Part shown: positions 3-21,284 of the stretch, piece by piece
Numbering within the stretch: the first letter of the stretch is position 1
How the letters are laid out: each line of letters begins with the position of its first letter
From: Candidatus Woesearchaeota archaeon
Lineage (GTDB): Archaea > Nanobdellota > Nanobdellia > Woesearchaeales > DSVV01
Direction: 5' to 3'
Assembly: GCA_016192995.1 (NCBI GenBank)
Contig: JACPTB010000013.1
Coordinates: 1-64,000 of the forward strand
DNA length: 64,000 nt
Program-made: the position numbers and the translations under genes
Notes under the pieces: generated by a model
Seen by the model: only the letters and a program-made list of their open reading frames with translations
Database searches by the model: none
Told to the model about the DNA's origin: nothing

Positions 3-3000
3 CATTTGTATTATATCGCAATAGTTGATTTTGATAATCTCGTAGATGAAGAAAACGAAGAAAATAATATTGCTACTACTTTAGAAGCTGTTCCTACCCA
101 TGGAACACCAATATTAAACGCAACTGATCATCCTTTAAACAGATCTGATGCAAATTTAACTGTTTATAATCAATCAACATCACCAGGGGTAAAGAATATT
201 ATTGACTGGCGATTAAACACAACCTCCATCACATTATTAAACATGCCTTTTGAAAGCCATAAAAACAACAATTCATTTGCCATAGATTATTCTACCTTTA
301 ATAATGTTGGAACTGTCCAGGGAGCATTATTCAATGCAAGTATTGGTTATGACGGAAAAGCAGCATATGAATTTACTGGAACAAACACTGGTATTCTTGT
401 CCCCAATGTCAACGCAACAAATTACACCATTACAGCATGGATAAAACCAGATCAGGTAAATAATTATGAAAATTTATTTTATTGGCAAGGTTCAGGTACG
501 TATTTTGCGCTAACAAATGCAATCTGCGCGTATGTAACTTCGTGGAGCTGCACAGGAACAGCTCCAACTGTAGGAGCATGGATGCATCTTGCAATAACAT
601 CGCAAGGTAAAGTATACAAAAATGGAATTTACTTAGGCACAATTACCGTAGAACCAGTTAGCGGCAATCTGAGCATAGGCGATCGAGACACAGCAACATG
701 GGACTTTGACGGAGTTATAGATGAATTCCAATTATATAACAGGGTTTTGTCAGCAGAACAAATACAAGCATTATATAGAACTGAAACAAATATTTTAGTC
801 AGCCAGGAAACGCAACCATTAGAATCATGGACTGCTGGGATTACACCAAATGATGGTGTTGACGGAAAAACAGAGATAAGTAATAGTCTTTTTATCAATT
901 ACGGGCCAACTCCCCCAACCCATAACACTCCTTTATTGCTTGCAACTGATTATCCAAGTAATACAACCGCAGCAAATCTAACAGTATATAACCAATCAAC
1001 AAGTGATCTTAACAATGATGTTGTTAAGAATATCATAGATTGGCGATTACAGGGAAGTTCTATCGCCCTGATAAATTTCCCTTTTGAGAAATTATCCTCT
1101 TATCAAACAACAACTAAAGATTATTCAAGCTTTACTAGAAACGGAACTGTCAGCGGAGCTGTTTTCAATGCAACCGGAGGATATGATACTAGAGGAAGTT
1201 ACGAATTTGATGGTGTTAACGATTATATCAGCACTACTTTAACGTATACTAGTGGAACAAATATTTCAACTGGTGGATGGTATAAAAGTAGTGATAATCT
1301 AACCACAAATATGGTTATGGTTGGTGGAAATAACGATGGCAGATTTGAAGTATATGTGGATCAAGCTAAACCAGGTTGTCGTATTTGGGACACAGCTGAC
1401 AGGTCAATCTATGCACCAGAACCAGCGTCATCAGGATGGCACCATATTGTTTGTACACAAACATACAATTCAAACACTACAAAGTTATATGTTGATGGTG
1501 TTTTAAAAGCTTCAACAAATTACAACTCAATTTCAGCTGGAGGAACTTGGCAAATCGGCAAACCAGGATCAAGTGGAGCAAAATACTTCAATGGAACAAT
1601 AGATAAAGTGTTTATTATGAATAGATCACTATCTCAAGAACAAATACTATCATTGTATGTTAATGGAAGTTATGTTCTTGTTAATAATGAAACAAATAAG
1701 AATGATGTGTGGAGTGCAACTCTAACTCCTCATGATGGTAATGAAGAAGGAACAACTAAGACGAGCAATACGATTACTACACTTAATTCTCCTCCAACTA
1801 CTCCTCTGTTATTAATTGAACAGAATAATAGCCATACTAATGATAATACAACAACATTCACCTGGAGTCAAGCTAGTGATTACGATACTGATGCAGTTCA
1901 CTATGAATTTGTTATTGCCAACAATACTAATTTTAATCCAATAATAATTAATCCCACAAACATTATAGATACTAATTATACCCTGGTTCAGCAATTAAAT
2001 GACAGCATATATTATTGGAAAGTACGCAGCTGTGATATAAGTAATAAATGCAGCAGTTATCAAACACCGTTTGTTGTCGTTATTGATACTATTAACCCCA
2101 ATATCCAATGGATTTATCCGCAAACAGATAATTCAAGCAAAAATTATGAGCATAACATTAGTTGGGATATTAAAGTAAGCGATAGTAATCTCTATAATGT
2201 TCTCCTCAATGTAACGAATGCAACAGGATATTCTATGTACAGTGAATATGTAAGTAATATTAGTGGAACAACCTATAATTTCACCAATATCACTGATGTC
2301 GCGTCATGGTCAAAAGGAAATTATACTGTTGAAGCCAGTGCAGGAGATGATCATACCTATGGCTCATTGCATGATTTAACATATACCATCAATAGTGATG
2401 GTATTTTATTTAGTGATGGCAATGTTAATAAGAAAATTTCCATAGGATATTTCATTGGCGGAAATTATGTATTTGCTCAGGCTTCTGACATCCAATCTAA
2501 TAATATTCTGTTTAATGCGCAAGAGCTAAACAAAGAATACAAATGGGTAATGAATATTAAACGCCCGCAAAATGATATTCAATTAGGTTTTGCAATTCCA
2601 GCAGAAAAGGTAATCTTAAGAAATAAAGATAAAGCGCATTTTGTTTGGGATGATTGGTATATTGATTTTGAAGATTTAATTAGTAATGGATTTCCCATTA
2701 AGATCAACAAACAAACTATCAATAACGAAGAATACTGGATTGTGTCTACATCAACAAGTTATTGCAAAGCAAACAAAGGCCAGACATGTACATTTGATCC
2801 TGTCGTTGGAGGATTGAATATTGTTACACAATATAAAACAATCTATATTAATAAAAAACCAGTTCACAATCTTCCTATTCTCAATGCAACAGATTATCCA
2901 ACGAATTCAACCAATGCAAACTTAACAGTGCATAACCAATCTACAATTGATTTGGATGATGATTTAGTAAAAAATATTTATGACTGGCGATTGAATAGCA

Positions 3001-4691
3001 ATTCAATGAGTCTTCTTAATCTGCCATTTGAAAATAACAATGAACCTGCAACCTCAACAAAAGATTATAGCACCAATCAAAAGAATGGAACTATCAGTGG
3101 AGCAGTTTTCAATGCAACCGGAGGTGTTGATGGATTTAGCGCTTATGAGTTTGATGGAGTGAATGACTACATTAATACTCAACTTAATTATCTCAGCAGC
3201 ATTAATATCACGATCAGCGCCTGGTATAAAACATTCGATAATCTTACTGCTAAAATGGCAATTGTCGGCGGGAATAATAGAGGCAGGTTTGAATCTTATG
3301 TTAATCAAGGTAAACCTGGTTGCAGAATTTGGGATACAGGAGAGAGAAGTATTTATGCATCGCAGCAGTTTATTAGTGGATGGCACCATATTGTTTGTAC
3401 ACAAACATTTTTCCCTAATACTACTTCATTATATGTCGATGGAGTATTGCAAGCATCTGCAAATTATTCATCTATAAGTGCAGGAGGAACATGGAGAATT
3501 GGTTATCCAGGATCAAGTGGAGCAAAATACTTCAATGGAACAATAGATGAAGTAATGATAGTTAATAGATCATTATCTGCAGAGCAAATAAAATCATTAG
3601 CACAGCAACGAAATGATCTATTAGTAAGTGAGGAAACTGAAGCAAGTGATATATGGAGTGTTGTAATTACACCAAATGATAAACTTTCAGATGGGAATAC
3701 TAAAGCAAGCAATGCGATATCTGTTTTGGGTAAAAATGTATGGAATGGTGTAGCATATCTCAACACTTGTTCTATAACTATTAACAACACTGAGTCAATA
3801 AATCATATCTATGAACCACAAGCGATTGATCCTACAGTTAATTGTAATTTTACTAATTCACTGCAAGCAGATCGTGATGATATACGTTTAATTTATCAGA
3901 ATATAACTGAAATCCCAATTGCTGCAGAGACTGATGCAGACTATATCATCGCGCTTTTAAATTCAACAGCTCGCAACACCGATAGTAATTACACCTTATT
4001 TTGGGGTAATAGTATAGTAGAGAGAACAAACTACAGTGATTGTACACTCTATAAACCATGCACTTATGAATTCAGAGGTGATTTATTTAAAGTTCATGAC
4101 AGATTTGATGACCCAACAACAGGTTATAATATAACATTCTGGAATGTGCAGTCTGGAAATTGTGGACCAACAACCGTGCATGTGTATGAAGGAGTATATG
4201 GAGGAAATTGCACAAATGGAGGCTTATTATTTGTAGACATTAGCGCTCCAAATATTGATCCGACCTATAGCGGTGCAGTGATTTATGATGAAGGTGATAC
4301 TGGAGGCAGTAATGGGAATGCTTTTATGGACGCGAGTTCGGGAGAGGCAAGAATCAATGGTGCAGGTGAAAGAACCGATATACATAGCAGTAAGTATGTA
4401 TATACTCAGGAAACTGGCGGCTGGAACGCTTCTAATTTCACTCGATACACTGGTTGGAAGGCAGTCAATATGAAATCAACCTTTGCCAACAAAGAGATAT
4501 ATTTCAACACCACATTAATTGGAAATCTTACTCAGACATCAGCTGCAAATGATCCGAGTGAAATTGTGAGATATAAAATAGGAAATCCAACAACAGCTAC
4601 TAATAATGTATATTTTGATTTCTTTGCCTATGGTAAGAATGAATTTCACTTGTATGATACTAAGGCAAAAGTGATTGTGGGGGATAAATAA
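3..4691 (+). CDS. Large LamG-repeat surface/adhesin-like protein (5' partial)
   Basis: The frame is open to the left edge, so the N-terminus and any signal peptide lie outside the window; about 1562 residues are visible. Three homologous modules can be read at roughly residues 28-285, 298-595 and 955-1255. Each starts with a stretch like LNATDxPxNxxxANLTVxNQST followed by a concanavalin A-like LamG fold (DYS..., YEFDGVNDYI, GWHHIVCTQT, LYVDGVL, IGKPGSSGAKYFNGTID). Between modules 2 and 3 lies a fibronectin/Ig-like stretch (TFTWSQASDYDTDAVHYEFVI). The C-terminal 300 residues are not recognised. The protein is very rich in N-x-S/T sequons, fitting a glycosylated cell-surface protein. No C-terminal membrane anchor is seen. 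Binding of polysaccharide or protein is a family-level inference only. Confidence 0.8.
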   Translation, partial: HLYYIAIVDFDNLVDEENEENNIATTLEAVPTHGTPILNATDHPLNRSDANLTVYNQSTSPGVKNIIDWRLNTTSITLLNMPFESHKNNNSFAIDYSTFNNVGTVQGALFNASIGYDGKAAYEFTGTNTGILVPNVNATNYTITAWIKPDQVNNYENLFYWQGSGTYFALTNAICAYVTSWSCTGTAPTVGAWMHLAITSQGKVYKNGIYLGTITVEPVSGNLSIGDRDTATWDFDGVIDEFQLYNRVLSAEQIQALYRTETNILVSQETQPLESWTAGITPNDGVDGKTEISNSLFINYGPTPPTHNTPLLLATDYPSNTTAANLTVYNQSTSDLNNDVVKNIIDWRLQGSSIALINFPFEKLSSYQTTTKDYSSFTRNGTVSGAVFNATGGYDTRGSYEFDGVNDYISTTLTYTSGTNISTGGWYKSSDNLTTNMVMVGGNNDGRFEVYVDQAKPGCRIWDTADRSIYAPEPASSGWHHIVCTQTYNSNTTKLYVDGVLKASTNYNSISAGGTWQIGKPGSSGAKYFNGTIDKVFIMNRSLSQEQILSLYVNGSYVLVNNETNKNDVWSATLTPHDGNEEGTTKTSNTITTLNSPPTTPLLLIEQNNSHTNDNTTTFTWSQASDYDTDAVHYEFVIANNTNFNPIIINPTNIIDTNYTLVQQLNDSIYYWKVRSCDISNKCSSYQTPFVVVIDTINPNIQWIYPQTDNSSKNYEHNISWDIKVSDSNLYNVLLNVTNATGYSMYSEYVSNISGTTYNFTNITDVASWSKGNYTVEASAGDDHTYGSLHDLTYTINSDGILFSDGNVNKKISIGYFIGGNYVFAQASDIQSNNILFNAQELNKEYKWVMNIKRPQNDIQLGFAIPAEKVILRNKDKAHFVWDDWYIDFEDLISNGFPIKINKQTINNEEYWIVSTSTSYCKANKGQTCTFDPVVGGLNIVTQYKTIYINKKPVHNLPILNATDYPTNSTNANLTVHNQSTIDLDDDLVKNIYDWRLNSNSMSLLNLPFENNNEPATSTKDYSTNQKNGTISGAVFNATGGVDGFSAYEFDGVNDYINTQLNYLSSINITISAWYKTFDNLTAKMAIVGGNNRGRFESYVNQGKPGCRIWDTGERSIYASQQFISGWHHIVCTQTFFPNTTSLYVDGVLQASANYSSISAGGTWRIGYPGSSGAKYFNGTIDEVMIVNRSLSAEQIKSLAQQRNDLLVSEETEASDIWSVVITPNDKLSDGNTKASNAISVLGKNVWNGVAYLNTCSITINNTESINHIYEPQAIDPTVNCNFTNSLQADRDDIRLIYQNITEIPIAAETDADYIIALLNSTARNTDSNYTLFWGNSIVERTNYSDCTLYKPCTYEFRGDLFKVHDRFDDPTTGYNITFWNVQSGNCGPTTVHVYEGVYGGNCTNGGLLFVDISAPNIDPTYSGAVIYDEGDTGGSNGNAFMDASSGEARINGAGERTDIHSSKYVYTQETGGWNASNFTRYTGWKAVNMKSTFANKEIYFNTTLIGNLTQTSAANDPSEIVRYKIGNPTTATNNVYFDFFAYGKNEFHLYDTKAKVIVGDK

Positions 4692-4729: not shown

Positions 4730-4895
4730 GGCTTCATCCAAAAATAAGGTTAGCACCCTCAGGTCGAAACTCTTTGAAATATTCATCAAAAGAGGTCGGA
4801 GGGTTGGCTCCTTCGGAGCACGACCGTTTAAGCGAAGATAAGAATTGAAGTTTCGAAGGTGCTAACCTGGCGGCAGCCATTTTTTGGATGAAGCC
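4730..4895. mobile_element. MITE-like inverted-repeat element, copy F
   Basis: A 166-bp non-coding element with terminal inverted repeats GGCTTCATCCAAAAA ... TTTTTTGGATGAAGCC. A second nested inverted pair (AGGTTAGCACC / GGTGCTAACCT) lies just inside. It is flanked by a perfect 9-bp direct repeat, CGAATGGTC (4721-4729 and 4896-4904), as expected for a target-site duplication. There is no credible coding frame. The outline matches the other six copies in the window, but the central hairpin differs in sequence. It lies directly upstream of the TATA box of the 4941 operon. Confidence 0.85.
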
Positions 4896-4910
4896 CGAAT
4901 GGTCAAAAAC

Positions 4911-4919
4911 TATATAAAA
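4911..4919 (+). promoter_or_regulatory. TATA box of the 4941 operon
   Basis: TATATAAAA is centred about 27 bases before the ATG at 4941, the spacing of an archaeal leaderless promoter. It begins seven bases after the right target-site duplication of MITE copy F, so the insertion sits immediately against the promoter. Confidence 0.6.
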
Positions 4920-4940: not shown

Positions 4941-6191
4941 ATGGGTTTCCAGGTATTCAATGCTAAAAAAGCAGCTCTTAATATAACCTTTGACATGATT
5001 ATAGAAGCAGTGCTTATTCTCATAGTGGCATTTTTTTTCATAAATTATGTTGATAGTATCAGCAACAATACCTTATTTGAGCGAACATTCCTGGCAAAAG
5101 ACCTTGCATTGATAACAAACACTCTGCAAGCAGCTCCTCAAGATGCAGTTGTTTCTTATGAGCCAAAATATGGCGGACCAGCATATAAGCTCTATACCGA
5201 CACTATATTCCAGAGAAATCTGGATCTATCAAAGTATAGCTATGATTTTGGAGATAATTTTGTCAAGCTTCAATTGGAAAAATACGACGAAGAACAATTC
5301 AGGCTTGTTCCAGATAAATTATTGGTCAGCTACCCTATTCATTATAATAACAATCTTGCTCGTTATTATCCCCTTCTAGAAAGGCCATCGAGAATAGTAC
5401 TTGCTAATACTAATAATGTATTTACCGTTGATAGTCAAGGAATTGTTGCAAGTAGTCAAGATACCTCTCCAAAATCAGTTATTTCTTCATCAGCAGGGGA
5501 AATAACATTAGTAAAGATCGACTGCGGCAATGAAAAATCAACATTCCCTATAAATCAAATATTATTAGATGCAGATTCAGGTTATTATATAACTCAAAAT
5601 AGTAAGCCTGAATTACAGAAAGGCGTTATGAATCTCGCCCAAGACCAAATAGAAATGGATATAATTTGGGAGTTTATGAAATCTTTAGAAATTTCTTTAA
5701 AATCAACAGAAAAAGGGTATGTAGTGACAACCTCCCGAACCAAAAAAACACCCGATGAAAAATTTACCTACGAAGCAAGATTGAATAAAGTTACGCCTGC
5801 AACAGACCTTATACTTGTCTTAAAAAATTATTACACAGAAAGTCATAGTGACAACACGATCAAAATATATTATCCCATAAACAATAAAGAGAGCAAGAAA
5901 TTAGCATGTTATATACATAACGCGATTATTGATACAGCTGAGCAACTAAATCAACATGATGCAAATGATATTCAGCAGCCGATTATGACTGAGCTTGTTG
6001 ATGAAAAAACAAAACAATTATTGGAGAAAAACAATAAGCTTGGTTTGCAAATAGAATTTGGAAATATCGCAGTTCCTTCAAATAAATTATTTTCCTTGCG
6101 CATTCCTTTAGCAAAAGCAATAAAAACCGCTATTCGTCAGCATAATGATCATTATGCTGATGAAGATGAAGACAAAGGGCAATCACCATGA
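4941..6191 (+). CDS. Single-span membrane-anchored protein, pilin-like N-terminus, first gene of hydrolase operon
   Basis: 416 residues. A short basic N-terminus (NAKKAA) is followed by one hydrophobic span at about residues 18-38, then a long hydrophilic domain presumably outside the cell. The stretch LAKDLALITNTLQAAPQ after the span resembles, from memory, small membrane proteins of DPANN genomes found beside peptidoglycan-hydrolase genes. No enzymatic motif is seen. The start fits the TATA box 27 bases upstream. The stop overlaps the next start by four bases (ATGA), so it heads a translationally coupled operon running to 14477. A role as an assembly or pilus-like subunit is only inferred from topology and neighbours. 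A 24-bp perfect palindrome lies in the frame at 6137-6160. Confidence 0.75.
   Translation: MGFQVFNAKKAALNITFDMIIEAVLILIVAFFFINYVDSISNNTLFERTFLAKDLALITNTLQAAPQDAVVSYEPKYGGPAYKLYTDTIFQRNLDLSKYSYDFGDNFVKLQLEKYDEEQFRLVPDKLLVSYPIHYNNNLARYYPLLERPSRIVLANTNNVFTVDSQGIVASSQDTSPKSVISSSAGEITLVKIDCGNEKSTFPINQILLDADSGYYITQNSKPELQKGVMNLAQDQIEMDIIWEFMKSLEISLKSTEKGYVVTTSRTKKTPDEKFTYEARLNKVTPATDLILVLKNYYTESHSDNTIKIYYPINNKESKKLACYIHNAIIDTAEQLNQHDANDIQQPIMTELVDEKTKQLLEKNNKLGLQIEFGNIAVPSNKLFSLRIPLAKAIKTAIRQHNDHYADEDEDKGQSP
6137..6160. repeat. 24-bp perfect palindrome inside the 4941 gene
   Basis: TCAGCATAATGA is followed directly by its exact reverse complement TCATTATGCTGA. It is read in frame near the C-terminus of the protein. 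Confidence 0.85.
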
Positions 6192-6766
6192 AAAAATTAA
6201 TCCTCAATGCCATGATACTTTTAGGTAAAAACAAGCGAGCAGGTTCTGTTTACTTGCAGATGATGTTCGGCTTTTTCAAATTTTTTCTGGTACTATTTAT
6301 AGTCTTCAGTATTTTATTTGTAGTAAGATCGCATTTCAAAGCAAAAATAGATATACTTGATACAGAACTTACTCTTTTAGCACATAACATAATCTATGCA
6401 AAAGGCGGAGTTTCTTATCAAGATCCAATAACAGGAAGAGTTTATCCAGGTGTTATTAGTTTGGAAGAATTTGAAAATAGTTTTGCGATGAGTTCGCGGT
6501 TAAATCAGGCGTTTTTCTATGAAAAACAACCAGTGTTCGCAGCGGTTATTAATCTCAACCTGCCTGAACAGAACAAAAAAGTAGAGAGTGTTTATTATTA
6601 CAAAGAATGGTATGATAAATGGCATCCTTTAGGAGCATCAAGATTAATCGGTAAAGGTGCAGTCATTAAAAAAACAATGAGCTTCAATGTTTTAGTGCGG
6701 CAAAAAACATCCCCGCATGATATACCGGGAATATTAACTATGGAAATAGTAACTCCAAGACCATAA
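6188..6766 (+). CDS. Small single-span membrane protein of hydrolase operon
   Basis: 192 residues. A basic N-terminus with NKRAGS precedes one strong hydrophobic span at about 25-47, followed by about 145 exported residues containing DPITGRVYPGVISLEEF. It overlaps the preceding gene by ATGA and is followed after 15 bases by a third protein of the same layout. The family is not recognised by name. Position, topology and the N-K-x-A pattern before the span link it to the proteins at 4941, 6782 and 7365, suggesting co-assembly in the membrane. No catalytic residues are seen. Confidence 0.75.
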   Translation: MKKLILNAMILLGKNKRAGSVYLQMMFGFFKFFLVLFIVFSILFVVRSHFKAKIDILDTELTLLAHNIIYAKGGVSYQDPITGRVYPGVISLEEFENSFAMSSRLNQAFFYEKQPVFAAVINLNLPEQNKKVESVYYYKEWYDKWHPLGASRLIGKGAVIKKTMSFNVLVRQKTSPHDIPGILTMEIVTPRP

Positions 6767-6781
6767 GGTGCTTTAACAATT

Positions 6782-7375
6782 ATGCAATTCCTCAAAAAAT
6801 TACATAAATTAGATGGAAACAAGTATGCAGGGCCAGGAGATGCAATCGCTGATATAATGATAATAGCTATTATTGTCTTTGTCATTGCTGTTTTTTTTGT
6901 TTTTTTTGTCAAGTTTGCTGCTCAAGAAACAAAATTGAGTTTAGACGCAAATAGAATAAAACTCGATGTAACCTATGATCTGCTTTATTATCTCCGAACA
7001 CCAGTCGCAGATACTTCTGATAAAACATTTGCAGAAACAATAGAATCCTACATGGTAACTAAAAATCCACTCGAGTATGGACAATTACAGGAGTTTTATG
7101 AAAATAATATTATGAAAACTTCTTCGCGGTGTAAACTGATAACAATTGAACGGAAAAGTTCAACGCAACAGATAATCCCTGCATTCCCTTCGTTAAGTGT
7201 TGAACAAACAAGTCTTGGCTCTTGTAAAATAGTTGTCCCTTTAAGATCACAGGTGATTCTTCCCTTATATCATCAAGATGAATATGTAATTGTTGAATAT
7301 AGTGTAGATATTACGGGTGAAGTTACGCAAGAAGTAATTAAAAAATATTTTAATCTGGTTAACAATGACAAATAA
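6782..7375 (+). CDS. Small single-span membrane protein of hydrolase operon
   Basis: 197 residues. The N-terminal stretch KLDGNKYAGPGDAIAD precedes a hydrophobic span at about 24-46, then an exported alpha-helical region (KFAAQETKLSLDANRIKLDVTYDLLYYLRTP) of the kind that follows the hydrophobic helix in pilin-like proteins. An AAGGTG stretch lies about 12 bases before the ATG. The stop overlaps the next gene by 11 bases. Function is unknown. It may be a minor pilin-like or scaffold subunit, but no prepilin peptidase site is certain. Confidence 0.75.
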   Translation: MQFLKKLHKLDGNKYAGPGDAIADIMIIAIIVFVIAVFFVFFVKFAAQETKLSLDANRIKLDVTYDLLYYLRTPVADTSDKTFAETIESYMVTKNPLEYGQLQEFYENNIMKTSSRCKLITIERKSSTQQIIPAFPSLSVEQTSLGSCKIVVPLRSQVILPLYHQDEYVIVEYSVDITGEVTQEVIKKYFNLVNNDK

Positions 7376-9500
7376 AAAATATAACCTCCAGAGAAAAATA
7401 ACCCTCAGCAAGGATAAGCTTGCAGTGAGCGTATTTATGGTGTTGTTATTAGTGGTAGTTATGTATGCAGTATTCTCAATATGGGCTGCATTATTAAACA
7501 TAAGTTCGTTTTCCCATACTGTTGGCGATGATGCCTTTGCCCTTTTGCAAACCTATGAGACCGGAGAAAAAGTTTTGTTCTATGTTGATCAAGTAGGTGA
7601 ACAAACGTATCGGCAATCATTATTTGATCTCGGGAAAAAAGGAGGTTTTTACCAAGCAACTCCCGAGCAAAATAAATGCGGTACTTACAGAGGTTCTTCA
7701 CTCTGGTATGCAGAGCCAGAATATTGTTTTCCAGAAAAAGAAAAAGAGGCATTAGCTGCGATATTTGCTGAAAATATGAAACAAATGTTAAGCTTCACGC
7801 CTATTGATGAGGTTGAAGAGAAAAGCCCAGATATTAAATATAATTTATTCTCTCAAGAGAATAAATTCTTAGCAATTACTAAAGATAAAATCCCAATAAA
7901 ATCACAACCTTTGCAATTGTTAAACCAAGGCTTGCAAAGCTTCGCTGGATTTCCTGATTGCAATAAACCATCCTCAACCACCCTCCAAAACACCTATGGT
8001 GATGGAGGCAGGATATGGATTCCGCGAGAAGCGCAGTGTGGAGGAAGTTTCCCGATTATTATTCTGCTCCATGGCCAAAGTAATCCTGGTGTTTTCGAAG
8101 GTCAGAAAGTATATCAAACAGCTGAGCAATTAATAAGTGCTCGGCAAGTCTATCCGGTTATTCTTGTCGAGCAATATGCAAAAAAAGAGCATTGGGTTAA
8201 CGATAATCCATGGCCAGTAAGCAAGTATAATATTAATGATCATGTGGTAGAGATAGAAAAGCAGCTTGCTCAGTACAATATTCGGATTAAGCATGTTTCA
8301 GTGCTTGGCCACAGTGCAGCAAACTGTTATTCTTCAGGTGGTTTAAGAACCATCGCACGTGATAGAACGTTATTTTTACTAGGCATGCTTGACCCAACAT
8401 GCAATACTAATGTTCCAGCAAAACAAGATCCGAAGCAATGCCCTCAAGTGCAGGATTACGGAGAACCTCACATTGCAGCTATCGAAGGCAAAGGCACTAT
8501 TCTTGTTGGAGTAAATGGCAATAAAAAATGTTCTGATCAAATCTCATTTCCAACAATGGTTGGTCAAACTCCTGAAGATATTAAATCAAGTAAAAAAATA
8601 TTTGATCAGGAGCGTTTTATAGCAGCCTACAAAAATCCGCAATTACCTTATTATAATTTTCAAATCCATTCGGATTATTACAGTCATGGCAATGCAATAG
8701 GTATTGGATTTAAAGAAATTCTATTGCAATTTTTCAAGCCAGAATTACAGCAGCCTTTTACGATGGCGATTCCAGAGGATTATAATGGTCTTAAATGCAG
8801 ACTAACTCAATTTACTGTAGATTCTCAATCAATAGGTGATACGCATAGTGGGAGTTTAGCCAATGCAGCAGTGATGCCGGCAAGTGGCGACTTGCCGTAT
8901 ATTTCACAATATCGTTTTCGGGAAACGTATTACACTACTAAAGAATTTGCTGAAATTATTGAACGGGTGGCTTGTATCATGCAGGCAAATGGCTACGATA
9001 AATTGCGGTTTAATGATTTAAGCAAACAGCAAGGTGGCACTATATTTAAACCATCAGGTAAACCAGCGCATGTTTCTCATAAAAGCGGTCGTGACGGCGA
9101 TTTCGGGTTTTATTATTTTCCTGATGCTCAGGCTCAACAATCAAAAAATCAACTTGTTGACGTAGTTAATAATCCAAAAGGAAGTCCTTCTTTAAAATTA
9201 CTTGAAGGTACCAGCAGGCAAATGTTTGATGTTAAAGGCAATTGGATTTTAGCAAGAACTTTTGTGCAAGTAGCAGAACAACAAGGCACCCCTATCACAA
9301 AAATCATTGCTGATGAAATTCTTTATAATCTTTTAATTGATTACGGGCAGAAATATGAGCAGGATAAAACAGTATTTGAAAAAACGAAAAATGCTCTTTT
9401 TCCTGATACAACAGACCATGATCATTTTAATCACTTTCACATTCGTATTAAATGTCCTTTAAACGATAAAATAGGTGGAACTCCATGCATAGACGATTAA
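7365..9500 (+). CDS. Membrane-anchored alpha/beta hydrolase + MepA-like murein endopeptidase fusion
   Basis: 711 residues. One N-terminal span lies at about 21-46. The middle region (about 205-455) has an alpha/beta-hydrolase outline: IIILLHGQSN, then GHSAAN with Ser317 in the nucleophile elbow. The C-terminal region (about 470-711) matches LAS-type metallopeptidases such as MepA (penicillin-insensitive murein endopeptidase): H572-x6-D579 in SHKSGRDGD and a late H690-F-H692 followed by IRIKCP. These are the usual zinc and catalytic positions, so it is probably active. The family cleaves peptide cross-links of peptidoglycan, which archaea lack, so the target is more likely a bacterial wall. 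It is translationally coupled on both sides (11-base and 16-base overlaps). The esterase substrate is unknown. Confidence 0.85.
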   Translation: MTNKKYNLQRKITLSKDKLAVSVFMVLLLVVVMYAVFSIWAALLNISSFSHTVGDDAFALLQTYETGEKVLFYVDQVGEQTYRQSLFDLGKKGGFYQATPEQNKCGTYRGSSLWYAEPEYCFPEKEKEALAAIFAENMKQMLSFTPIDEVEEKSPDIKYNLFSQENKFLAITKDKIPIKSQPLQLLNQGLQSFAGFPDCNKPSSTTLQNTYGDGGRIWIPREAQCGGSFPIIILLHGQSNPGVFEGQKVYQTAEQLISARQVYPVILVEQYAKKEHWVNDNPWPVSKYNINDHVVEIEKQLAQYNIRIKHVSVLGHSAANCYSSGGLRTIARDRTLFLLGMLDPTCNTNVPAKQDPKQCPQVQDYGEPHIAAIEGKGTILVGVNGNKKCSDQISFPTMVGQTPEDIKSSKKIFDQERFIAAYKNPQLPYYNFQIHSDYYSHGNAIGIGFKEILLQFFKPELQQPFTMAIPEDYNGLKCRLTQFTVDSQSIGDTHSGSLANAAVMPASGDLPYISQYRFRETYYTTKEFAEIIERVACIMQANGYDKLRFNDLSKQQGGTIFKPSGKPAHVSHKSGRDGDFGFYYFPDAQAQQSKNQLVDVVNNPKGSPSLKLLEGTSRQMFDVKGNWILARTFVQVAEQQGTPITKIIADEILYNLLIDYGQKYEQDKTVFEKTKNALFPDTTDHDHFNHFHIRIKCPLNDKIGGTPCIDD

Positions 9501-10561
9501 TGTTATCGGTGTTATTATTATTATGTTTGGCATCCATCAACATAGTTTTAGCTGTACAAGAACCATTAATTATAATCAAAATTGAAGATAACAAAGTTGT
9601 TATGGCAAACATCATCGAAAAAAATGATTATTACGTTGCTCATTACCAAGATTTTTTTGAAGCGATTGAAGAACAAGATGCTTATTATCGTCTAAAACTC
9701 TATGCTAAAAACAAGCTTCTTGTTGATGCAGCACCATTTCCCGAGTTATTGATCTATGAATTTAATCCATCAACAACGAAGATACAAATAATAAATGAAA
9801 AAAATAATCTAATTATTTTTGAAAAAGAAATTAATGTATGTAATTATAATAATATTTGTGAACCATCGCGCCCCAAAGGCGCGATGAGCAGCAATTATGA
9901 ATCTTCATTACTCTGTTCAGATTGCAAGAAAAGTTCAAATGACAATTTCTGTGAAATCATACATGATGGTGTTTGTGATCCAGATTGTAATGGTCTTGAG
10001 TATGAATGCGATGAGAGAATATCGCAAAGCGATGGGTTATTAGATAATACGGAATTTAAATGCAGTTCTCAATTCAATGGTGAACTATGTAAGGAAAACC
10101 AAGAATGTTTAACTGAATCAATAATGCTAAACAACAAAGTTTGTTGTTTAGCTCTATGTTCAGAAAAATTTATGCTGAAAGAAGAGTTAGAAAAATTAAA
10201 TCAAGAAGATGGTAAAAGAGTTATCGAAGCTGAACAAGTCTATGTTGGCAAGCTAAAAAAACAGGAAACAGCTAACACCATGCCTATGACAACCATCATA
10301 ACTGTTATCAGTCTGATAACAATTATCTCATTAATAACCTTTTTGTTTATCAAAAAGAACTATATTAATAAAAAAATGTTTGCTGAAGTAAATGAGTTAA
10401 TTAACAACTACAACTATGGGCAAATAAGGAAACTATTAAGGAAAAAAGGATATAATGAATCCCAAGTAGAAAAAGCAATTAATCAGCATTATAACAGATA
10501 TAAATCATATTATGAACAGCAGTTCAAGCAACTTGAAAACAATGGCAATAACAAAAAATAA
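9485..10561 (+). CDS. Exported Cys-rich type I membrane protein of hydrolase operon
   Basis: 358 residues. A signal peptide is clear (MHRRLMLSVLLLLCLASI...). The exported part is Cys-rich, with CSDCKK, CEIIHDGVCDPDCNG and CCLALC, likely disulfide-bonded or metal-binding. A membrane span at about 262-287 is followed by a cytoplasmic tail of about 70 residues ending in a helical module (NNYNYGQIRKLLRKKGYNESQVEKA). It overlaps the MepA-like gene by 16 bases and the next gene by 20. The topology suits a receptor or anchoring partner of the hydrolases, but no function is known. A hairpin with 13-bp arms lies in the frame at 10126-10152. Confidence 0.75.
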   Translation: MHRRLMLSVLLLLCLASINIVLAVQEPLIIIKIEDNKVVMANIIEKNDYYVAHYQDFFEAIEEQDAYYRLKLYAKNKLLVDAAPFPELLIYEFNPSTTKIQIINEKNNLIIFEKEINVCNYNNICEPSRPKGAMSSNYESSLLCSDCKKSSNDNFCEIIHDGVCDPDCNGLEYECDERISQSDGLLDNTEFKCSSQFNGELCKENQECLTESIMLNNKVCCLALCSEKFMLKEELEKLNQEDGKRVIEAEQVYVGKLKKQETANTMPMTTIITVISLITIISLITFLFIKKNYINKKMFAEVNELINNYNYGQIRKLLRKKGYNESQVEKAINQHYNRYKSYYEQQFKQLENNGNNKK

Positions 10562-13500
10562 GTTTAAAAAAATAAAAAAAGAATGGTGTATCAGTTTCTT
10601 AATCATAGTGCTTTTTACCCTAGCTGCAGGTGCAGTATGGTATCTTGCCTCTTCTCATTTTTTTGAAAAAGATGTTATGGGTAAAGCTTCTGAAGCTCTC
10701 TTAAATCAGGAAGATAAATTCAAGTTTCTTGTCGTTGCAGACATCCCTGGTTCATTAAAAAATATTAACCCGCCTCCACATGCAGCTGCAGCAATTGCTT
10801 CTATGCAGGTCTTGCAAGCTCCGCCTGCAGAATTGATTGTTTTCAATGGAAATATGATTTCAGGGCTTGATGAAAGTCAGTATCGGGAAAGTGCAAATTT
10901 GCAAAACTATGAAGGTATTATTAATAATAAATGGCAGGCTTTTTATGAGCAAATATTTCAGCCATTATCAATACCAACAAAAGGAATTATACAGATTCCA
11001 GTGCCAGGAAGTCTTGATACTGTTTTGACAGAGCCAAAGCTTCTTTCTGAAGCCTATGCAAAATTCTGGAACAGCCATAAGCCTTCTCTTTCAATAAAAG
11101 GCAATTATCCTTGGTGGTATTCATTTAATTATAAAAATAGTTACTTCATAATTTTAGACACCTCAAATTTCGCAATAACAGAGGAGCAGGTATCATGGTT
11201 GGAAGCTGACCTTGAGTCAGCGAAATCAGAAAATATTTTTGTTTTCTCCCATGTTCCTCCTGAAGTGTTTTGTAGTGACGGAGGATGCGCATCTCTGCAG
11301 GGGATGCAAAAACAGTCTCTTTTTCAAATAATGAAAAAATATAACGTTAAAATATTATTTACCGGCAATAATCATGTTTATTATAAAGCCCGTTATCAAG
11401 GTGTTAATGTTGTTGCTTCAGGAGCAATAGGTGGCACCTTTAATCTTATAGCAGCAGAACCTGAAAAATATAAACAAAATCCATCATATACTGTAGTTGA
11501 TGTGCAGGGAATTGATATTCGTGTTGGAGCAATTACTGGCAATAATGGTCCGACATTCAGCAATGGTTATACCGAATCATTGCTTCCTTCTGCAATTCCC
11601 GGTTATGATGCTTATACAGAATTAACAAAAAACCCTATATCTATAATTCCAACAGTTATTTCTTCATCAGCAGCTCCTCTTAAAGCAACAGGATCTTCAG
11701 GAAACCCTCAAATGGATCAATGGAATGGATTAATTCTTGATGCCTGCAAACAAGAGCAAAACCAAAAAGAGTGTTTTGCTTTGGTAAAAGCTTTCATGTA
11801 TGTAGAATCAGGGGGAAACCCATTAAGAGTATCATCAACAGGATGTAAGGGATTGCTCCAATTTTGTTTGAGCACTGCAAAAGGTAAAAAATTTAGTGAA
11901 TTTTTTGATGAAAAAACATTAGACCAAGAAAATGACGATCGTTTTAATCCAGAAAAAAGTATTCGCGCAGGTAAAAAATATATTGTTGACATTCTGAAAA
12001 AGCAGATGCATATGGACAATCTGTTTATTATGTATGTTAGTTATAATGTAGGTCCCTCATATGGTCAAAAGGCAAGGGATTACTTTCAAGGCAAAGATCC
12101 AACACAAAGCGAAGTTGAAGCTTGGCTTGAACAAACAGATTTAACTAAGCAGAAAATAAATGAACCTAAAACAGCATTTCCTAAATTGATCACAAAATAT
12201 GGAGAATACATGGGTCAAGGCATAAGCTCAGTTAGTTATCCTGATGCTGCTGTTCCAAGATATGGCGCTTCTAATCTAGAAAGAATTAACGCGCCTTCTG
12301 CAATATCTTATTATATTACACCAAGCTTTACTCTCGAACATCCTAGTAGTGGTCAAGATGATGTAAGTGTTTATGGGAAACTTCGTGAGTATGTAAGATG
12401 GTATATAAAAAATACAGAATCATGCAGTAATAGCGGCAAACCATTAAATCAGTGCAGTGATGACGCACTGCAAAGTTTAAACAAAGAACCCTATTTTGCA
12501 AAAAATATTGGGGGTATAAGTGATTGTACGCAACAAGAATCAGATCTGGAAAAATTCTTTTACGATCTTGTTGAAGAGATAAGAGGATGCATAACTTTTC
12601 AACAGGAGAAAATGTGTGCAATAGCACTTAAAGCTCCCCCTCAAAAAGCAGATGAAAAATATAGTGTTGTTTTCAAGCAGCATGAAGGGAAAATAATTAT
12701 TGAATTACCGTTAAATAACAAGCTATTAACACAATTTACGCATGGGTTGCAAGAAACCATTGATAAAAAAGCAATAATGCTCACTGATGTACCTAATTTA
12801 GAAGGTTCAAAAACAATGCTCAATGAACTATACATTACTTTTGAGCAAGTAAACAATAATCTGATTCCTTTTATCTATTACAAAAAGCAAGGGACTGAAG
12901 ACGTGCAAGGGGTAGCAACATCTATGCTTTATCTGATGCCTGACCGCGAACAAAGCATTATTATTCTTGATCCAGTGATAGGAAATACACAAACAATTGA
13001 TACAAAAATATTGGATGCAGCGGAAACAACAAAACAAAATACCAAAAAACTCTGCATTACTTCTCTGAACGAACAACCAGTGCAATATCTTGAAGCAGTA
13101 AATCCATTGCAAGTGAGGCCTATAACCTATGAACTTGCGGTGAGATTCAACCCTGCACTTTCAACAACAAAGAATTTCTTTGATCCAATGCCGACCTTTC
13201 TAGATACAACTCCTTCAAAACTAAGTTTGGAGCAATTGCAGCTTGCATTAAAAGATAAAAAAATTGCAATTCTCAGTGATATCCAAGGACTTAAGGCACA
13301 GGAAAGTGATGGTTTTATTACTCAACTTAAAAAAAGCCTTCCCACAGTCTCAATCACAGCCTATGCTAAAGACGCTCGAGCTCAATGGCTAAAGGATAAT
13401 TATTTTCAACAGGAAATAATAACGCAAAATTATGATGTTTTAATTCTTGCATTGGGAAGCAGTGATGTTTGTGATAATATTGAATTCAGTAATTTGGTTA

Positions 13501-14477
13501 ATTCCATCAATATAATGGCAAAACAATTTAAAACAGCTCAGGAAACTAACAAAGTTTTTGTTGTTGGATTGCCAGGATCAGATGATAAAACCTGTAATAA
13601 TAATATTCTAATTTATAATGGGGCAGTCAGTAAAAATGATCAGAATAATAAGGTTATCATTAAACAATTGCAGGAGCAATTAGGAAAAGAGCTTTCATTA
13701 GAAAACATAGATGTAGGTTTAGATATTTATCCCGATGCAAATATAGTAACCGCAGAAGGAAAATATAAATACCATTATGGAACACTTGAAAAAAGAAAAG
13801 AATTGCTAATCACTCATCCTGCTGAAGGGCAATTACAAACAATTATAACACAAAAAATACTAGAAGGATTGCGCGGCTTCGAGCCTGAAACAAATAATCT
13901 TGCTTGTAAAAGTGTATTTGCGGTAGGAACCTCATCAATATATTTTGCAAAAAATAAGGGTGGTTTCATTGATAGACTTAAGGAACAGTTTCCACAAATT
14001 AAATTTGAAAGTAAAGGTTATCCTAATGAAGATTCAGGATTTGTAGCAGAAAAATTTGAAGCAGAAATCTTGCCAAGTATCAAGGAAGAGGTAGATTGCC
14101 TTATTGTTGGAGCAGGTTTAAATGATATTGGTAATCTAGCTTCGGTAAAAAAGAATTTACAATACATATATGCTCTTGCTCGTAAAAACAACATGAAAGT
14201 GATAGCAATTGAATTGCAACCTTACTTTCAAAAAGCGCAAAATCCAAAAGCATATGAAAATACGCGAGCTTTAAATGCTTGGTTTGCAGCTGAAGCAGAT
14301 GTTGAAGCTGTGGTTAAAATTTATGACTTAACGAATGATCCAGAGCATGAAGGCCGAATGCAGCCTAAATTTATTAGTACGGCTAATGGTGAGCCGGATT
14401 TTATACATTATAATTATGAAGAAGGCCATAAATTAGTAGCTGAGGAAATAGCTAAAACAGTCTTAGGTGCTGATTAA
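10542..14477 (+). CDS. Exported multidomain protein: degenerate metallophosphoesterase - SLT transglycosylase - two SGNH domains
   Basis: 1311 residues from the ATG at 10542; an earlier in-frame ATG at 10512 would add ten polar residues before the span. A membrane anchor lies at about 12-34. A calcineurin-like region (about 60-340) has lost most metal ligands (VVADIPG, NGNMIS, TGNNH), so it is probably inactive. An SLT lytic-transglycosylase domain (about 385-555) has Glu422 in YVESGGNP, GLLQF, FNPEKSIRAGKKYI and YNVGP. Two C-terminal SGNH-hydrolase-like domains follow. The first (about 905-1100) is weak. The second (about 1120-1311) keeps Ser1131, Asn1194 in GLND, and Asp1286/His1289 in DFIH. 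SLT domains cut peptidoglycan glycan strands, and SGNH enzymes include sugar O-acetylesterases. It closes the operon. The domain calls are motif-based. Confidence 0.85.
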   Translation: MAITKNKFKKIKKEWCISFLIIVLFTLAAGAVWYLASSHFFEKDVMGKASEALLNQEDKFKFLVVADIPGSLKNINPPPHAAAAIASMQVLQAPPAELIVFNGNMISGLDESQYRESANLQNYEGIINNKWQAFYEQIFQPLSIPTKGIIQIPVPGSLDTVLTEPKLLSEAYAKFWNSHKPSLSIKGNYPWWYSFNYKNSYFIILDTSNFAITEEQVSWLEADLESAKSENIFVFSHVPPEVFCSDGGCASLQGMQKQSLFQIMKKYNVKILFTGNNHVYYKARYQGVNVVASGAIGGTFNLIAAEPEKYKQNPSYTVVDVQGIDIRVGAITGNNGPTFSNGYTESLLPSAIPGYDAYTELTKNPISIIPTVISSSAAPLKATGSSGNPQMDQWNGLILDACKQEQNQKECFALVKAFMYVESGGNPLRVSSTGCKGLLQFCLSTAKGKKFSEFFDEKTLDQENDDRFNPEKSIRAGKKYIVDILKKQMHMDNLFIMYVSYNVGPSYGQKARDYFQGKDPTQSEVEAWLEQTDLTKQKINEPKTAFPKLITKYGEYMGQGISSVSYPDAAVPRYGASNLERINAPSAISYYITPSFTLEHPSSGQDDVSVYGKLREYVRWYIKNTESCSNSGKPLNQCSDDALQSLNKEPYFAKNIGGISDCTQQESDLEKFFYDLVEEIRGCITFQQEKMCAIALKAPPQKADEKYSVVFKQHEGKIIIELPLNNKLLTQFTHGLQETIDKKAIMLTDVPNLEGSKTMLNELYITFEQVNNNLIPFIYYKKQGTEDVQGVATSMLYLMPDREQSIIILDPVIGNTQTIDTKILDAAETTKQNTKKLCITSLNEQPVQYLEAVNPLQVRPITYELAVRFNPALSTTKNFFDPMPTFLDTTPSKLSLEQLQLALKDKKIAILSDIQGLKAQESDGFITQLKKSLPTVSITAYAKDARAQWLKDNYFQQEIITQNYDVLILALGSSDVCDNIEFSNLVNSINIMAKQFKTAQETNKVFVVGLPGSDDKTCNNNILIYNGAVSKNDQNNKVIIKQLQEQLGKELSLENIDVGLDIYPDANIVTAEGKYKYHYGTLEKRKELLITHPAEGQLQTIITQKILEGLRGFEPETNNLACKSVFAVGTSSIYFAKNKGGFIDRLKEQFPQIKFESKGYPNEDSGFVAEKFEAEILPSIKEEVDCLIVGAGLNDIGNLASVKKNLQYIYALARKNNMKVIAIELQPYFQKAQNPKAYENTRALNAWFAAEADVEAVVKIYDLTNDPEHEGRMQPKFISTANGEPDFIHYNYEEGHKLVAEEIAKTVLGAD

Positions 14478-14530: not shown

Positions 14531-15529
14531 ATGTTTCAAGTTAACTATGATACTATCATACAGCGTATTAAAGAAAAAACACAGCTTTCAGAAGTAGTTA
14601 TAGATGAAAAAATTAAAGAAAAAATGGCGCAGCTTTCCGGTTTAATTTCTAAAGAAGGCGCTGCTAATATCATTGCTAATCAATTAGGTGTTTCTTTAAC
14701 TCAAGAAAGTCCTTTAAAAATAAATCAGTTGCAGCCAGGGCTGAAAAATATTCAACTTCATGGAAAGGTGCTGAGGAAATATAATCTTTATGAATTTACG
14801 CGCGGAGATACTGTTGGTAAAGTTGCAAGTTTTCAGCTTGGTGATGAAACCGGATCAGTAAGAGTAACTCTATGGCACGATCAAACAGCATTGTTTGAAG
14901 AACTTAAAGAAAATGATACGATTAAAATAGATGATGGCTATGTCAAAGAGAATAATGGGTATAAAGAAATTCACCTTAACACGAGAAGCAAACTCCATAT
15001 TAATCCAAGTGATGTGTTTGTTGGGGAGATAAAAGCAAATGCTGGAATCACCAGAAAGAAAATTGTTGAGCTGCAAGATCAAGATAATAATGTTGAATTG
15101 CTTGGCACCGTTGTCCAAATTTTCGACATAAAATTTTATCCTATTTGTCCGGAATGCAATAAAAAAGTGCAAATGCACGAAGAAGGAGCTTTTTGTGCAG
15201 CCCATAACACCGTTATTCCTTCTCACTCATATGTTCTTAATCTTTTTCTGGACGATGGTTCAGACAACATTCGTGCGGTATTCTTTAAACAGCAGATTCA
15301 GCAGTTATTGAAGAAACAAGATCAAGAGATTCAGTTGTATCGGGAAGCGCCAGAAACATTTCTTCAAATAAAAAGTAATCTTCTTGGTGAAATGATAAAA
15401 GTTGCTGGTAGGGTAGTAAAGAACGCATTATTTGATCGTAAGGAGTTTGTCGTAAATATTCTTGAAACTAATCTTGATCCAGAAGATGAAATAAAGCGAT
15501 CTCTGCAAGAAGCTGCAGTGAAAACATAG
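14531..15529 (+). CDS. Archaeal RPA-type single-stranded DNA-binding protein
   Basis: 332 residues. An N-terminal helical segment (LSGLISKEGAANIIANQLGV) is typical of archaeal RPA. It is followed by an OB fold at about 75-165 (LHGKVLRKYNLYEF, ASFQLGDETGSVRVTLWHD, NDTIKIDDGYVKE) and a second OB region that contains a zinc-finger-like insert (CPECNKK ... FCAAH, about 200-220). It binds ssDNA in replication, repair and recombination, and would work with the RadA, RadB and PCNA encoded elsewhere in the window. It is separated by 53 bases from the hydrolase operon. No clear TATA box is seen before it. Identification is firm; paralog number is not determinable here. Confidence 0.92.
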   Translation: MFQVNYDTIIQRIKEKTQLSEVVIDEKIKEKMAQLSGLISKEGAANIIANQLGVSLTQESPLKINQLQPGLKNIQLHGKVLRKYNLYEFTRGDTVGKVASFQLGDETGSVRVTLWHDQTALFEELKENDTIKIDDGYVKENNGYKEIHLNTRSKLHINPSDVFVGEIKANAGITRKKIVELQDQDNNVELLGTVVQIFDIKFYPICPECNKKVQMHEEGAFCAAHNTVIPSHSYVLNLFLDDGSDNIRAVFFKQQIQQLLKKQDQEIQLYREAPETFLQIKSNLLGEMIKVAGRVVKNALFDRKEFVVNILETNLDPEDEIKRSLQEAAVKT

Positions 15530-15556
15530 TTTGCACGACCAAGTTTTAAGATGCCT

Positions 15557-15566
15557 TTATAAATAA
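15557..15566 (+). promoter_or_regulatory. TATA box of the DUF457 gene
   Basis: TTTATAAATA is centred about 25 bases before the ATG at 15586, indicating a leaderless transcript. Confidence 0.6.
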
Positions 15567-15585
15567 ATGAATTCAATGATAGTAT

Positions 15586-16050
15586 ATGCTTGCAAGAACC
15601 CATGTTTGTTTTGCGTTATTACTCGCTATTATTACAGATTATTATTTTTCGTTTGAAATCCCCTTCTGGTGGTATGCCACTATCATGATAGGATGTAGTT
15701 TTCTTCCAGATATAGATATACCTACATCAAAGCTTGGAAAAAGAATAAAATTAGTGGGCTATATCTTCGAACATAGGGGTATATTCCACACTATCTGGCC
15801 AATGCTTTTTATGTTTTACATTCTGAATAAATATTTCTCATTTGATCTAGCGGCGAGCGCTATCATGGGATATTTTTCACATCTCTTGTTAGATATGTTA
15901 ACCCCTAAAGGAATTCAACTGTTCTATCCATTAAAGTTAAAAATTAGAGGTTTTATCGAAACTGGTTCATTTTTAGAAAATATTGTTTGTATAATTCTAT
16001 TAATGATCGATGCTGGACTTGTTTTGTATTTATTCTCTACAGAAAAATAA
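15586..16050 (+). CDS. DUF457 / YdjM-family membrane-bound metal-dependent hydrolase
   Basis: 154 residues with about four hydrophobic spans. The pattern RTHVCFA near the N-terminus, then SFLPDIDIPTS, the basic segment FEHRGIFHT and YFSHLLLDMLTPKGI, match the His/Asp-rich signature of the DUF457 (YdjM) family of integral membrane proteins. These are annotated as metal-dependent hydrolases of unknown substrate. Transcribed alone from its own TATA box. The family call is good; the biological role is unknown. Confidence 0.85.
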   Translation: MLARTHVCFALLLAIITDYYFSFEIPFWWYATIMIGCSFLPDIDIPTSKLGKRIKLVGYIFEHRGIFHTIWPMLFMFYILNKYFSFDLAASAIMGYFSHLLLDMLTPKGIQLFYPLKLKIRGFIETGSFLENIVCIILLMIDAGLVLYLFSTEK

Positions 16051-20026: not shown

Positions 20027-21085
20027 TTAAACATCCCTAATTCCTTCTTCTTTTACCACAAATACAGCTTCTGCATCAGCAAGATTAGGCGCATCTAATA
20101 ATTTAGCTACTCTAGTTCCTTTCTTGCCTTTTCGTAAGTAAATTCTGAAGGTGGAGTTATGGCCAACAATATGCCCGCCAATTGATTCAGTTGGGTCGCC
20201 AAAAAACTGATCAGGTCTAGCCATAACTTGATTGGTAACATAGACGCATAAGTTATAGACATCAGCAAGTTTTGCTAAAACATGCATATGTTTGTTTAAT
20301 TTTTGCTGCCGATCAGCAAGTGTCCCCCTTCCCACATATTCTGCCCTGAAATGCGCAGTTAAAGAATCAACAACTATTAGTTTTACATTAAGGTTTTTTT
20401 TGGTAATTAATTCTTCAACCTGCTCTGCTAACACCATTTGATGGTCAGAGTTATATGCACGCGCGACTTTGATTTGTTTCAAGACTCTTTCAGGATCCAA
20501 ACCAACACCTTTTGCGAATTGAATAATTCTTTCAGGTCTGAACGTATTCTCAGTATCAAGGTAAACAGCTACTGCATCAGGTATCTGTTTAATCATGTTG
20601 ACACATAATTGATGTGCTACTTGAGTCTTGCTGCTCCCATATTGACCATAACACTCAGTTATTGCACCAGTTTCAAACCCACCGGCAAGTATAGTATCAA
20701 AAGCATTGCTTCCGGTGCTAAGACGGATTACTTGCTCACGCTTTTTAAGAATATCTTCAGCGCTTTCAAATCCCATATCAATAGAACTTCGAGATGCTTG
20801 AATTAATTTTCTGGCAACAACTTCACTTATTCCTGCAGCATTGACCAATTCTCCGGGGGTTGCTACAGCAATAGCCATGACCGTATCAAAGCCGGCTAAG
20901 CGTAATTTTTCAGCAGTAGCTGCGCCAACTCCTGGTAAGGATTCTAATCCTTGGATCTTTCCAGGTTTTTTATCTTTGCCATCACTGACAAAATCTGTAG
21001 CCTCCTCACTAGTTGTATTGATATCTTCTTCCATATTCTCATACAAATCATCCTGTTCTTCTTCTGCCATTTTTTTTGCTAACAT
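20027..21085 (-). CDS. radA: RadA recombinase
   Basis: 352 residues from the ATG at 21085. That start follows an AAGGTGAT ribosome-binding site; an upstream GTG lies inside the site itself. An acidic N-terminal tail and a helix-hairpin-helix domain (LPGVGAATAEKLRLAGF) precede the RecA core. The core has Walker A at about 147-154, Walker B (LIVVDSL), the L2 region (TNQVMARPDQFFGDPTESIGGHIVGH) and STFRIYLRKGKKGTR. It forms filaments on ssDNA for strand exchange. Walker A reads GQYGSSKT: the usually invariant Gly before Lys153 is Ser152, checked directly in the codons. Otherwise the family features are complete and the length is near normal. Confidence 0.96.
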   Translation of the reverse strand: MLAKKMAEEEQDDLYENMEEDINTTSEEATDFVSDGKDKKPGKIQGLESLPGVGAATAEKLRLAGFDTVMAIAVATPGELVNAAGISEVVARKLIQASRSSIDMGFESAEDILKKREQVIRLSTGSNAFDTILAGGFETGAITECYGQYGSSKTQVAHQLCVNMIKQIPDAVAVYLDTENTFRPERIIQFAKGVGLDPERVLKQIKVARAYNSDHQMVLAEQVEELITKKNLNVKLIVVDSLTAHFRAEYVGRGTLADRQQKLNKHMHVLAKLADVYNLCVYVTNQVMARPDQFFGDPTESIGGHIVGHNSTFRIYLRKGKKGTRVAKLLDAPNLADAEAVFVVKEEGIRDV

Positions 21086-21284
21086 AGGTATCACCTTCTT
21101 TATTTTATATTTATTGAATTTTTAGTACCCTAAACTCCTTAATAAGCTCGACTGCGACTTTTCCGAAAATACGTATCCGTAATCCGAATATCTCTACAAA
21201 AAAAACAAAAAAACTCCCAAAAAACAAGGAGTTATAAGCTCATTTTCCGAAAATTTCGGAAAGGTTTTGTGCCTTTTTTATTCC

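Follow-up and report, generated by a model that had tools for sequence, protein, structure and literature searches.

A stretch of 64,000 nucleotides (nt) from the genome of a Candidatus Woesearchaeota archaeon (contig JACPTB010000013.1; this whole stretch is called the window below) was analyzed for a locus of six genes, G1 to G6, which encodes pilin-like membrane proteins together with peptidoglycan hydrolase domains. The first four of these, G1-G4, are called the cassette. The genome comprises 1.62 megabases in 16 contigs and is 99.6% complete with 1.66% contamination. Woesearchaeota are referred to as the order, and comparisons across the class cover 281 genomes. A preliminary description of this DNA had pointed out six closely packed open reading frames (ORFs) and these were found at positions 4941-14477, all on the + strand, in an order that recurs in dozens of genomes and is thus beyond chance. 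The genes and their immediate surroundings are as follows (lengths in amino acids, aa).

4908-4919, + strand: TATA-like stretch ACTATATAAAAC, a possible promoter recognized by eye, approximately 22-33 nt 5' of the G1 ATG
4941-6191, + strand: G1, pilin-like minor subunit 1, 416 aa, with K-K-A preceding a single hydrophobic helix
6188-6766, + strand: G2, pilin-like minor subunit 2, 192 aa, overlapping G1 by 4 nt; used for the class-wide census
6782-7375, + strand: G3, pilin-like minor subunit 3, 197 aa
7365-9500, + strand: G4, whole ORF, 711 aa
9485-10561, + strand: G5, 358 aa, with a signal peptide, a Cys-rich ectodomain and a C-terminal membrane span
10512-14477, + strand: G6, membrane-anchored, 1321 aa
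14531-15529, + strand: gene for replication factor A (RPA), a neighbor of the cassette in 53 of 75 loci and outside the claimed device

The locus had been said to encode three small single-span proteins, but G1 with its 416 aa is not small. A scan with a sigma-70 promoter model, which is not applicable to archaea, returned roughly the numbers expected by chance.

Domain searches were employed to define the enzymatic parts of G4 and G6, which are located as follows.

7365-7904, + strand: N-terminal conserved module of G4 (aa 1-180), a membrane helix and a mostly helical domain, found class-wide while the rest of G4 varies
7947-8790, + strand: middle region of G4, alpha/beta-hydrolase-like, with the motifs LHG and GHSA and no profile match
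8829-9467, + strand: Peptidase_M74 domain of G4 (MepA-type LAS murein endopeptidase) with HxxHx6D and HxxHxH
10713-11561, + strand: degenerate calcineurin-like phosphoesterase domain of G6, its metal motifs mostly lost as judged by eye
11769-12098, + strand: SLT (GH23) lytic transglycosylase domain of G6, with the catalytic Glu of ESGGNP at about 11805

The C-terminus of G4 matched Peptidase_M74 (PF03411) with 43.5 bits against a Pfam cut-off of 25, and its HxxHx6D and HxxHxH motifs, which hold the zinc and active-site residues, are invariant in six sequences (the window and five relatives). This domain aligned with Escherichia coli MepA (1tzp/1u10; E=1e-14 for 1tzp) with every motif residue kept. 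The SLT domain (PF01464) of G6 scored 54.5 bits against a cut-off of 21.3, and the Glu of its ESGGNP motif was aligned to that of EmtA. The MepA-like and SLT domains reported earlier are genuine peptidoglycan hydrolase domains with intact catalytic residues, and as far as sequence profiles and catalytic residues go, they bear out the LAS and SLT folds. The alpha/beta-hydrolase assigned to the middle of G4 fared less well: the motifs LHG and GHSA and a conserved His are present, and LHG and GHSA are conserved in two sister genomes, but there was no match in Pfam, and as PDB searches of this region gave nothing significant, the assignment rests on the motifs. An SGNH domain had been proposed for the C-terminus of G6 and found no support, as neither Pfam nor a PDB search returned a significant match. 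Conversely, the calcineurin-like domain near the start of G6 had been overlooked. The window genome contains no SLT domain other than that of G6, and no M23 domain was found in it.

Relatives among named genomes were found via an alignment of the neighboring RPA gene. A search with G4 indicated that most relatives share only aa ~1-180, embedded in proteins of widely differing length, and because only this N-terminus is conserved, full-length G4 had found no match among named genomes. Of 79 loci, 69 had G1-G2-G3-G4 in intact order; contig ends truncate many of the other ten, and the remainder contain a diverged or unassigned subunit. A deeper profile of G2 detected this protein in 213 of the 281 class genomes, and in 127 of the 158 best ones. 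An iterated G3 model drifted to other prepilins and consequently also marks upstream pilins, so that G3 was judged by position. The gene order extends beyond G4 in the sister genomes G001 and G006, in which G5 and a large sixth gene follow. The sixth gene of G006 is homologous to aa 68-740 of G6 (BLASTP E=1e-23) and keeps ESGGNP, and Pfam found no SLT domain in its product. Homologs of G5 were identified after G4 in nine other loci. The six-gene order in two sister genomes means that the unit is not unique to this contig, and together with the retention of G1-G4 among the relatives this refutes the concern, voiced in the preliminary description, that the gene order might be a peculiarity of one assembly.

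Analysis of the variable part of G4 revealed what distinguishes the order from the rest of the class. Counted with Pfam cut-offs over 49 Woesearchaeota loci including the window, 28 carry a peptidoglycan hydrolase on G4. These enzymes belong to seven Pfam families (M74, M15, M23, SLT, NlpC/P60, Amidase_2 and Amidase_3), single G4 proteins sometimes bear two or three of them, and other enzyme families are nearly absent. Outside the order, only one of 26 G4 proteins carries a hydrolase (Fisher P=3e-6, with sequences counted regardless of kinship) and the median length of G4 is 247 aa (n=26), compared with 522 aa in Woesearchaeota. Cargo was occasionally detected on the neighboring genes, namely an M15_4 domain on G1 of one relative, a GH25 muramidase domain on one G5 homolog, and an SLT domain just 3' of G4 in genomes G054 and G023 (by comparison of coordinates). 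The C-terminal part of G1 is likewise enlarged in Woesearchaeota, with a median of 300 aa versus 130 aa outside the order. The hydrolases are interchangeable cargo on the G4 subunit.

The genomic context of the cassette was then compared with that of filament genes. In 56 of 79 loci the cassette is preceded by short ORFs of the canonical archaeal pilin type ([K/R]GxxLSxNVIIIA) in the same orientation. Filament genes and cassette form one complete run in genomes G145 and G135 (loci L112 and L113), which starts with three membrane proteins, two coiled-coil proteins on the opposite strand, a T2SSE-type ATPase, a TadC-like protein of ~700-730 aa and several prepilin-like ORFs and ends with G1, G2, G3, a bare G4 (one that carries no hydrolase) and RPA. 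Each of the 14 genomes examined encodes the filament ATPase, nearly always next to the TadC-like gene, and an A24 prepilin peptidase was likewise detected in 14 of 14 (window-genome copy at G000:C5:171175). Class-wide, the TadC-like family was found in 270 of 281 genomes, and hhalign aligned it with two T2SSF proteins of the ordinary type encoded by the window genome (87%, E=4e-6). Coordinates compared by hand showed that 32 genomes, none of them from the order, have the TadC-like gene on the strand of G2 and within ~9 kilobases upstream of it. The genetic tie of the cassette to a type IV filament machine is a new finding of this analysis. The filament ATPase of the window genome (L114:7043-10909) is split by an intein with a LAGLIDADG domain. 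Many class genomes contain three related multi-span proteins of ~180 aa and two coiled-coil proteins beside the filament ATPase (L112:4128-6789, L113:3238-5805).

G1-G3 and the N-terminus of G4 look like pilin-type subunits of a class-wide filament system. A K/R-K/R-G/A/S signature before the membrane helix was present in 63-91% of G1-G4 proteins, compared with 35% of other N-terminally anchored ORFs. The predicted structure of G2 (predicted local distance difference test, pLDDT, 91) consists of a long helix (18-50) and a C-terminal sheet, and that of the G4 N-domain (pLDDT 80) is mostly helical. G3 gave a weak Pilin_N match in Pfam that is below cut-off (E=0.065). Since these pilin-like subunits occur class-wide and the hydrolases are exchangeable, the six-gene hydrolase assembly described earlier is a local version of a larger system. 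The earlier interpretation is partly supported, by the archaeal locus, the two hydrolase domains, the conserved gene order and the lack of signs of peptidoglycan synthesis; predation, competition, attachment and entry, the purposes it named, are candidates.

Taken together, the locus probably encodes the cargo-bearing minor subunits, at the tip or as a pseudopilus cap, of a class-conserved type IV filament whose hydrolases act on bacterial walls. G1-G4 would enter the membrane as prepilin-like single-span proteins, would be processed by the prepilin peptidase and would be assembled by the dedicated ATPase/TadC-like pair, so that they could cap or initiate a filament. The Woesearchaeota G4, sometimes also G1, G5 or G6, would then expose one or several peptidoglycan hydrolases to the surroundings, and these may cut the walls of neighboring bacteria, resulting in anchoring, breaching or lysis; killing, entry, feeding or attachment may be the outcome.

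Several observations weigh against this interpretation. The stricter class III motif is enriched only moderately (40-55% of G1-G4 versus 26%), and the motifs of G2, G3 and G4 of the window itself deviate from the class III consensus. Foldseek searches of the PDB with the G2 and G4 N-domain models gave non-significant matches only and no solved pilin, the G2 profile matched no PDB sequence, and in Pfam no pilin or TadE-type family scored above cut-off in G1-G4, where TadE, TadF and TadG remained without a match up to E=1. The ATPase/TadC-like pair of the window genome is encoded on a different contig from the cassette. No major pilin was detected in this genome at E<=1e-3, in comparison to nine of ten genomes searched, and the contig begins inside the gene preceding G1. 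A further 21 of the 49 Woesearchaeota G4 proteins carry no recognized hydrolase above cut-off, and SLT and M23 genes are also present away from the cassette in these genomes, which makes the cassette a preferred site for hydrolases and not the sole one. Given the missing pilin-fold match, the moderate motif, the major pilin not found in the window genome and the 21 of 49 G4 proteins with no recognized hydrolase, the subunits are called pilin-like, and filament assembly and tip position, as well as processing, the bacterial target and the biological purpose, are what we infer.

Part of this evidence would also suit a simpler arrangement, in which G1-G4 form a membrane complex that holds enzymes at the surface for the scavenging of wall debris and the pilin genes merely share the region. 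The unmatched pilin fold, the unlinked ATPase/TadC-like pair in Woesearchaeota and the major pilin not found in the window genome would fit such a complex. It is nevertheless unlikely in view of the linkage to pilins in 56 of 79 loci and to the TadC-like gene in 32 genomes, the prepilin-like N-termini of G1-G4 and the bare G4 outside the order, which implies that the cassette has a role independent of enzymes. A different outcome of the same machine and cargo is conceivable if the filament hydrolases mainly bind or lightly loosen peptidoglycan and the archaeon lives as an episymbiont on a bacterium. Such attachment is a possibility to be taken seriously, if somewhat doubtful: cultured DPANN archaea are ectosymbionts according to the relevant passages of PMC11291902, and the corresponding passages of PMC8204110 propose a role in attachment for murein transglycosylases of Woesearchaeota and Pacearchaeota, but the intact catalytic residues of the M74 and SLT domains and the presence of two or three different hydrolases per protein suggest cutting over mere binding. 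Uptake of DNA or nucleotides by a competence-type pseudopilus that breaches bacterial walls is improbable. Pseudopili import DNA in bacteria (textbook knowledge), RPA adjoins the cassette as noted above, and both the window and L112 have RadA further downstream; RPA and RadA are, however, housekeeping genes whose linkage may be passive, and pyrimidine synthesis is encoded by the window genome.

The remaining two explanations concern the origin of the substrate and of the DNA. In bacteria the same enzyme families act on the cell's own wall, as is textbook knowledge, and the archaeal enzymes could correspondingly remodel a wall of their own. Proteins with a Mur_ligase_M domain, however, numbered at most one per genome in 17 genomes and were absent from six of them, as opposed to the four Mur ligases expected. 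This agrees with the earlier statement that archaea lack peptidoglycan, there being no set of genes for its synthesis in the genomes tested, and it follows that the substrate of the hydrolases should be foreign, namely bacterial walls. Own-wall remodeling was rejected as very improbable owing to the lack of the Mur ligase set in the 17 genomes. A chimeric contig or bacterial contamination could be suspected, as bacterial control genomes contained these hydrolase families and none was found in the archaeal controls. Against this stand the recurrence of the gene order in separately assembled genomes of many families, the even base composition and the archaeal genes alongside; the chance of such an artifact is close to negligible and it was rejected because the cassette recurs in independent genomes. 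The archaeal origin claimed for the locus is supported by this recurrence and by the adjacent archaeal genes.

Comparison with known systems suggests, by analogy, that the closest functional parallel to the cassette is the Kil/Tad pilus of Myxococcus xanthus, in which interchangeable minor-pilin tips (KilL-KilM-KilN, of the TadEFG type) serve predation (PMC12075869). On the proposed reading, both combine a type IV filament with a small cluster of minor subunits, of which one large subunit has a variable exposed domain (the C-terminus of G4 in the cassette); both have exchangeable tips, which in Kil/Tad are used on other bacteria. The Kil/Tad system is bacterial and has three subunits, whereas the cassette is archaeal and has four. 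The Kil/Tad paper uses neither the word peptidoglycan nor the word hydrolase and describes no wall-cutting tip, and as no TadE-type family matched G1-G4, we do not assign the cassette to the Tad family. With the archaeal type IV pili and archaella of the Makarova census (PMC4858521) the system shares a secretion ATPase, a TadC-like platform, class III prepilins and the A24 peptidase. It differs from them in its divergent platform of ~740 aa with extra membrane and coiled-coil genes and in the four-gene minor-subunit cassette, which bears hydrolases in one order; peptidoglycan and hydrolases are unmentioned in that census.

Enzymes that cut peptidoglycan are encoded by archaea that have none, and two of them from Halogranum kill a bacterium (Strock et al. 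2025, PMC12352652). These enzymes are not tied to a filament there, and M74, MepA and SLT are absent from the text. For Woesearchaeota and Pacearchaeota, large GH23-type murein transglycosylases with a proposed action on bacterial walls are treated in passages of Castelle 2021 (PMC8204110) and Vigneron 2022 (PMC9723730); these passages deal with single enzymes and do not report the cassette, the link to a filament or the exchange of seven families on one subunit. The catalytic domains of E. coli MepA (Peptidase M74) and EmtA/MltE (GH23) are homologous to those of G4 and G6 and share the active-site residues, but the E. coli enzymes act on the cell's own wall and are not fused to pilin-like subunits. 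A literature search, incomplete in its coverage, returned no paper that joins Woesearchaeota, pilin and peptidoglycan, left the cassette undescribed and found no link of wall-cutting enzymes to a conserved filament cassette.

The widespread Woesearchaeota belong to the DPANN archaea and are uncultured; every DPANN member in cultivation lives as an ectosymbiont of archaea according to the passages of PMC11291902 on this topic. We tentatively propose, with less than even confidence, that the repeated fusion of unrelated hydrolases to one tip subunit has made a type IV filament, near-universal in the class, into a contact weapon or entry tool of Woesearchaeota against bacteria, and that many Woesearchaeota might be predators or episymbionts of bacteria and not of archaea. 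If so, a filament with a swappable wall hydrolase would point to bacterial hosts or prey and provide a genome-readable marker of a bacteria-directed lifestyle, and customized pilus tips would extend from predatory bacteria to archaea.

The flanking regions contain further features. Nested inverted repeats are located directly 5' of G1 at positions 4730-4895 (15 nt perfect and 14 nt at 93%), and these possibly represent a small mobile element or a cruciform beside the promoter. The 5' side of the cassette is adjoined by a gene for a surface protein (6-4691, + strand) with three LamG-type domains and at least 1561 aa, which is cut by the contig start and has no homolog among the other loci that were fetched. 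Downstream of the cassette of the window come RPA, a YdjM-type membrane protein and, further on, RadA (14531-16050 and 20027-21094), and this conserved neighborhood with recombination genes is also found in a distant class member (L112:16438-19901). The sister genome G006 encodes a large subtilase (Pfam S8; L022:1741-5460, - strand) directly 5' of its cassette, and a large, secreted subtilisin-like protease was recognized by eye in the window at 53970-57491 on the - strand. A GyrA-type ORF of 1702 aa (23816-28924, + strand) contains two apparent intein-like insertions, also recognized by eye.

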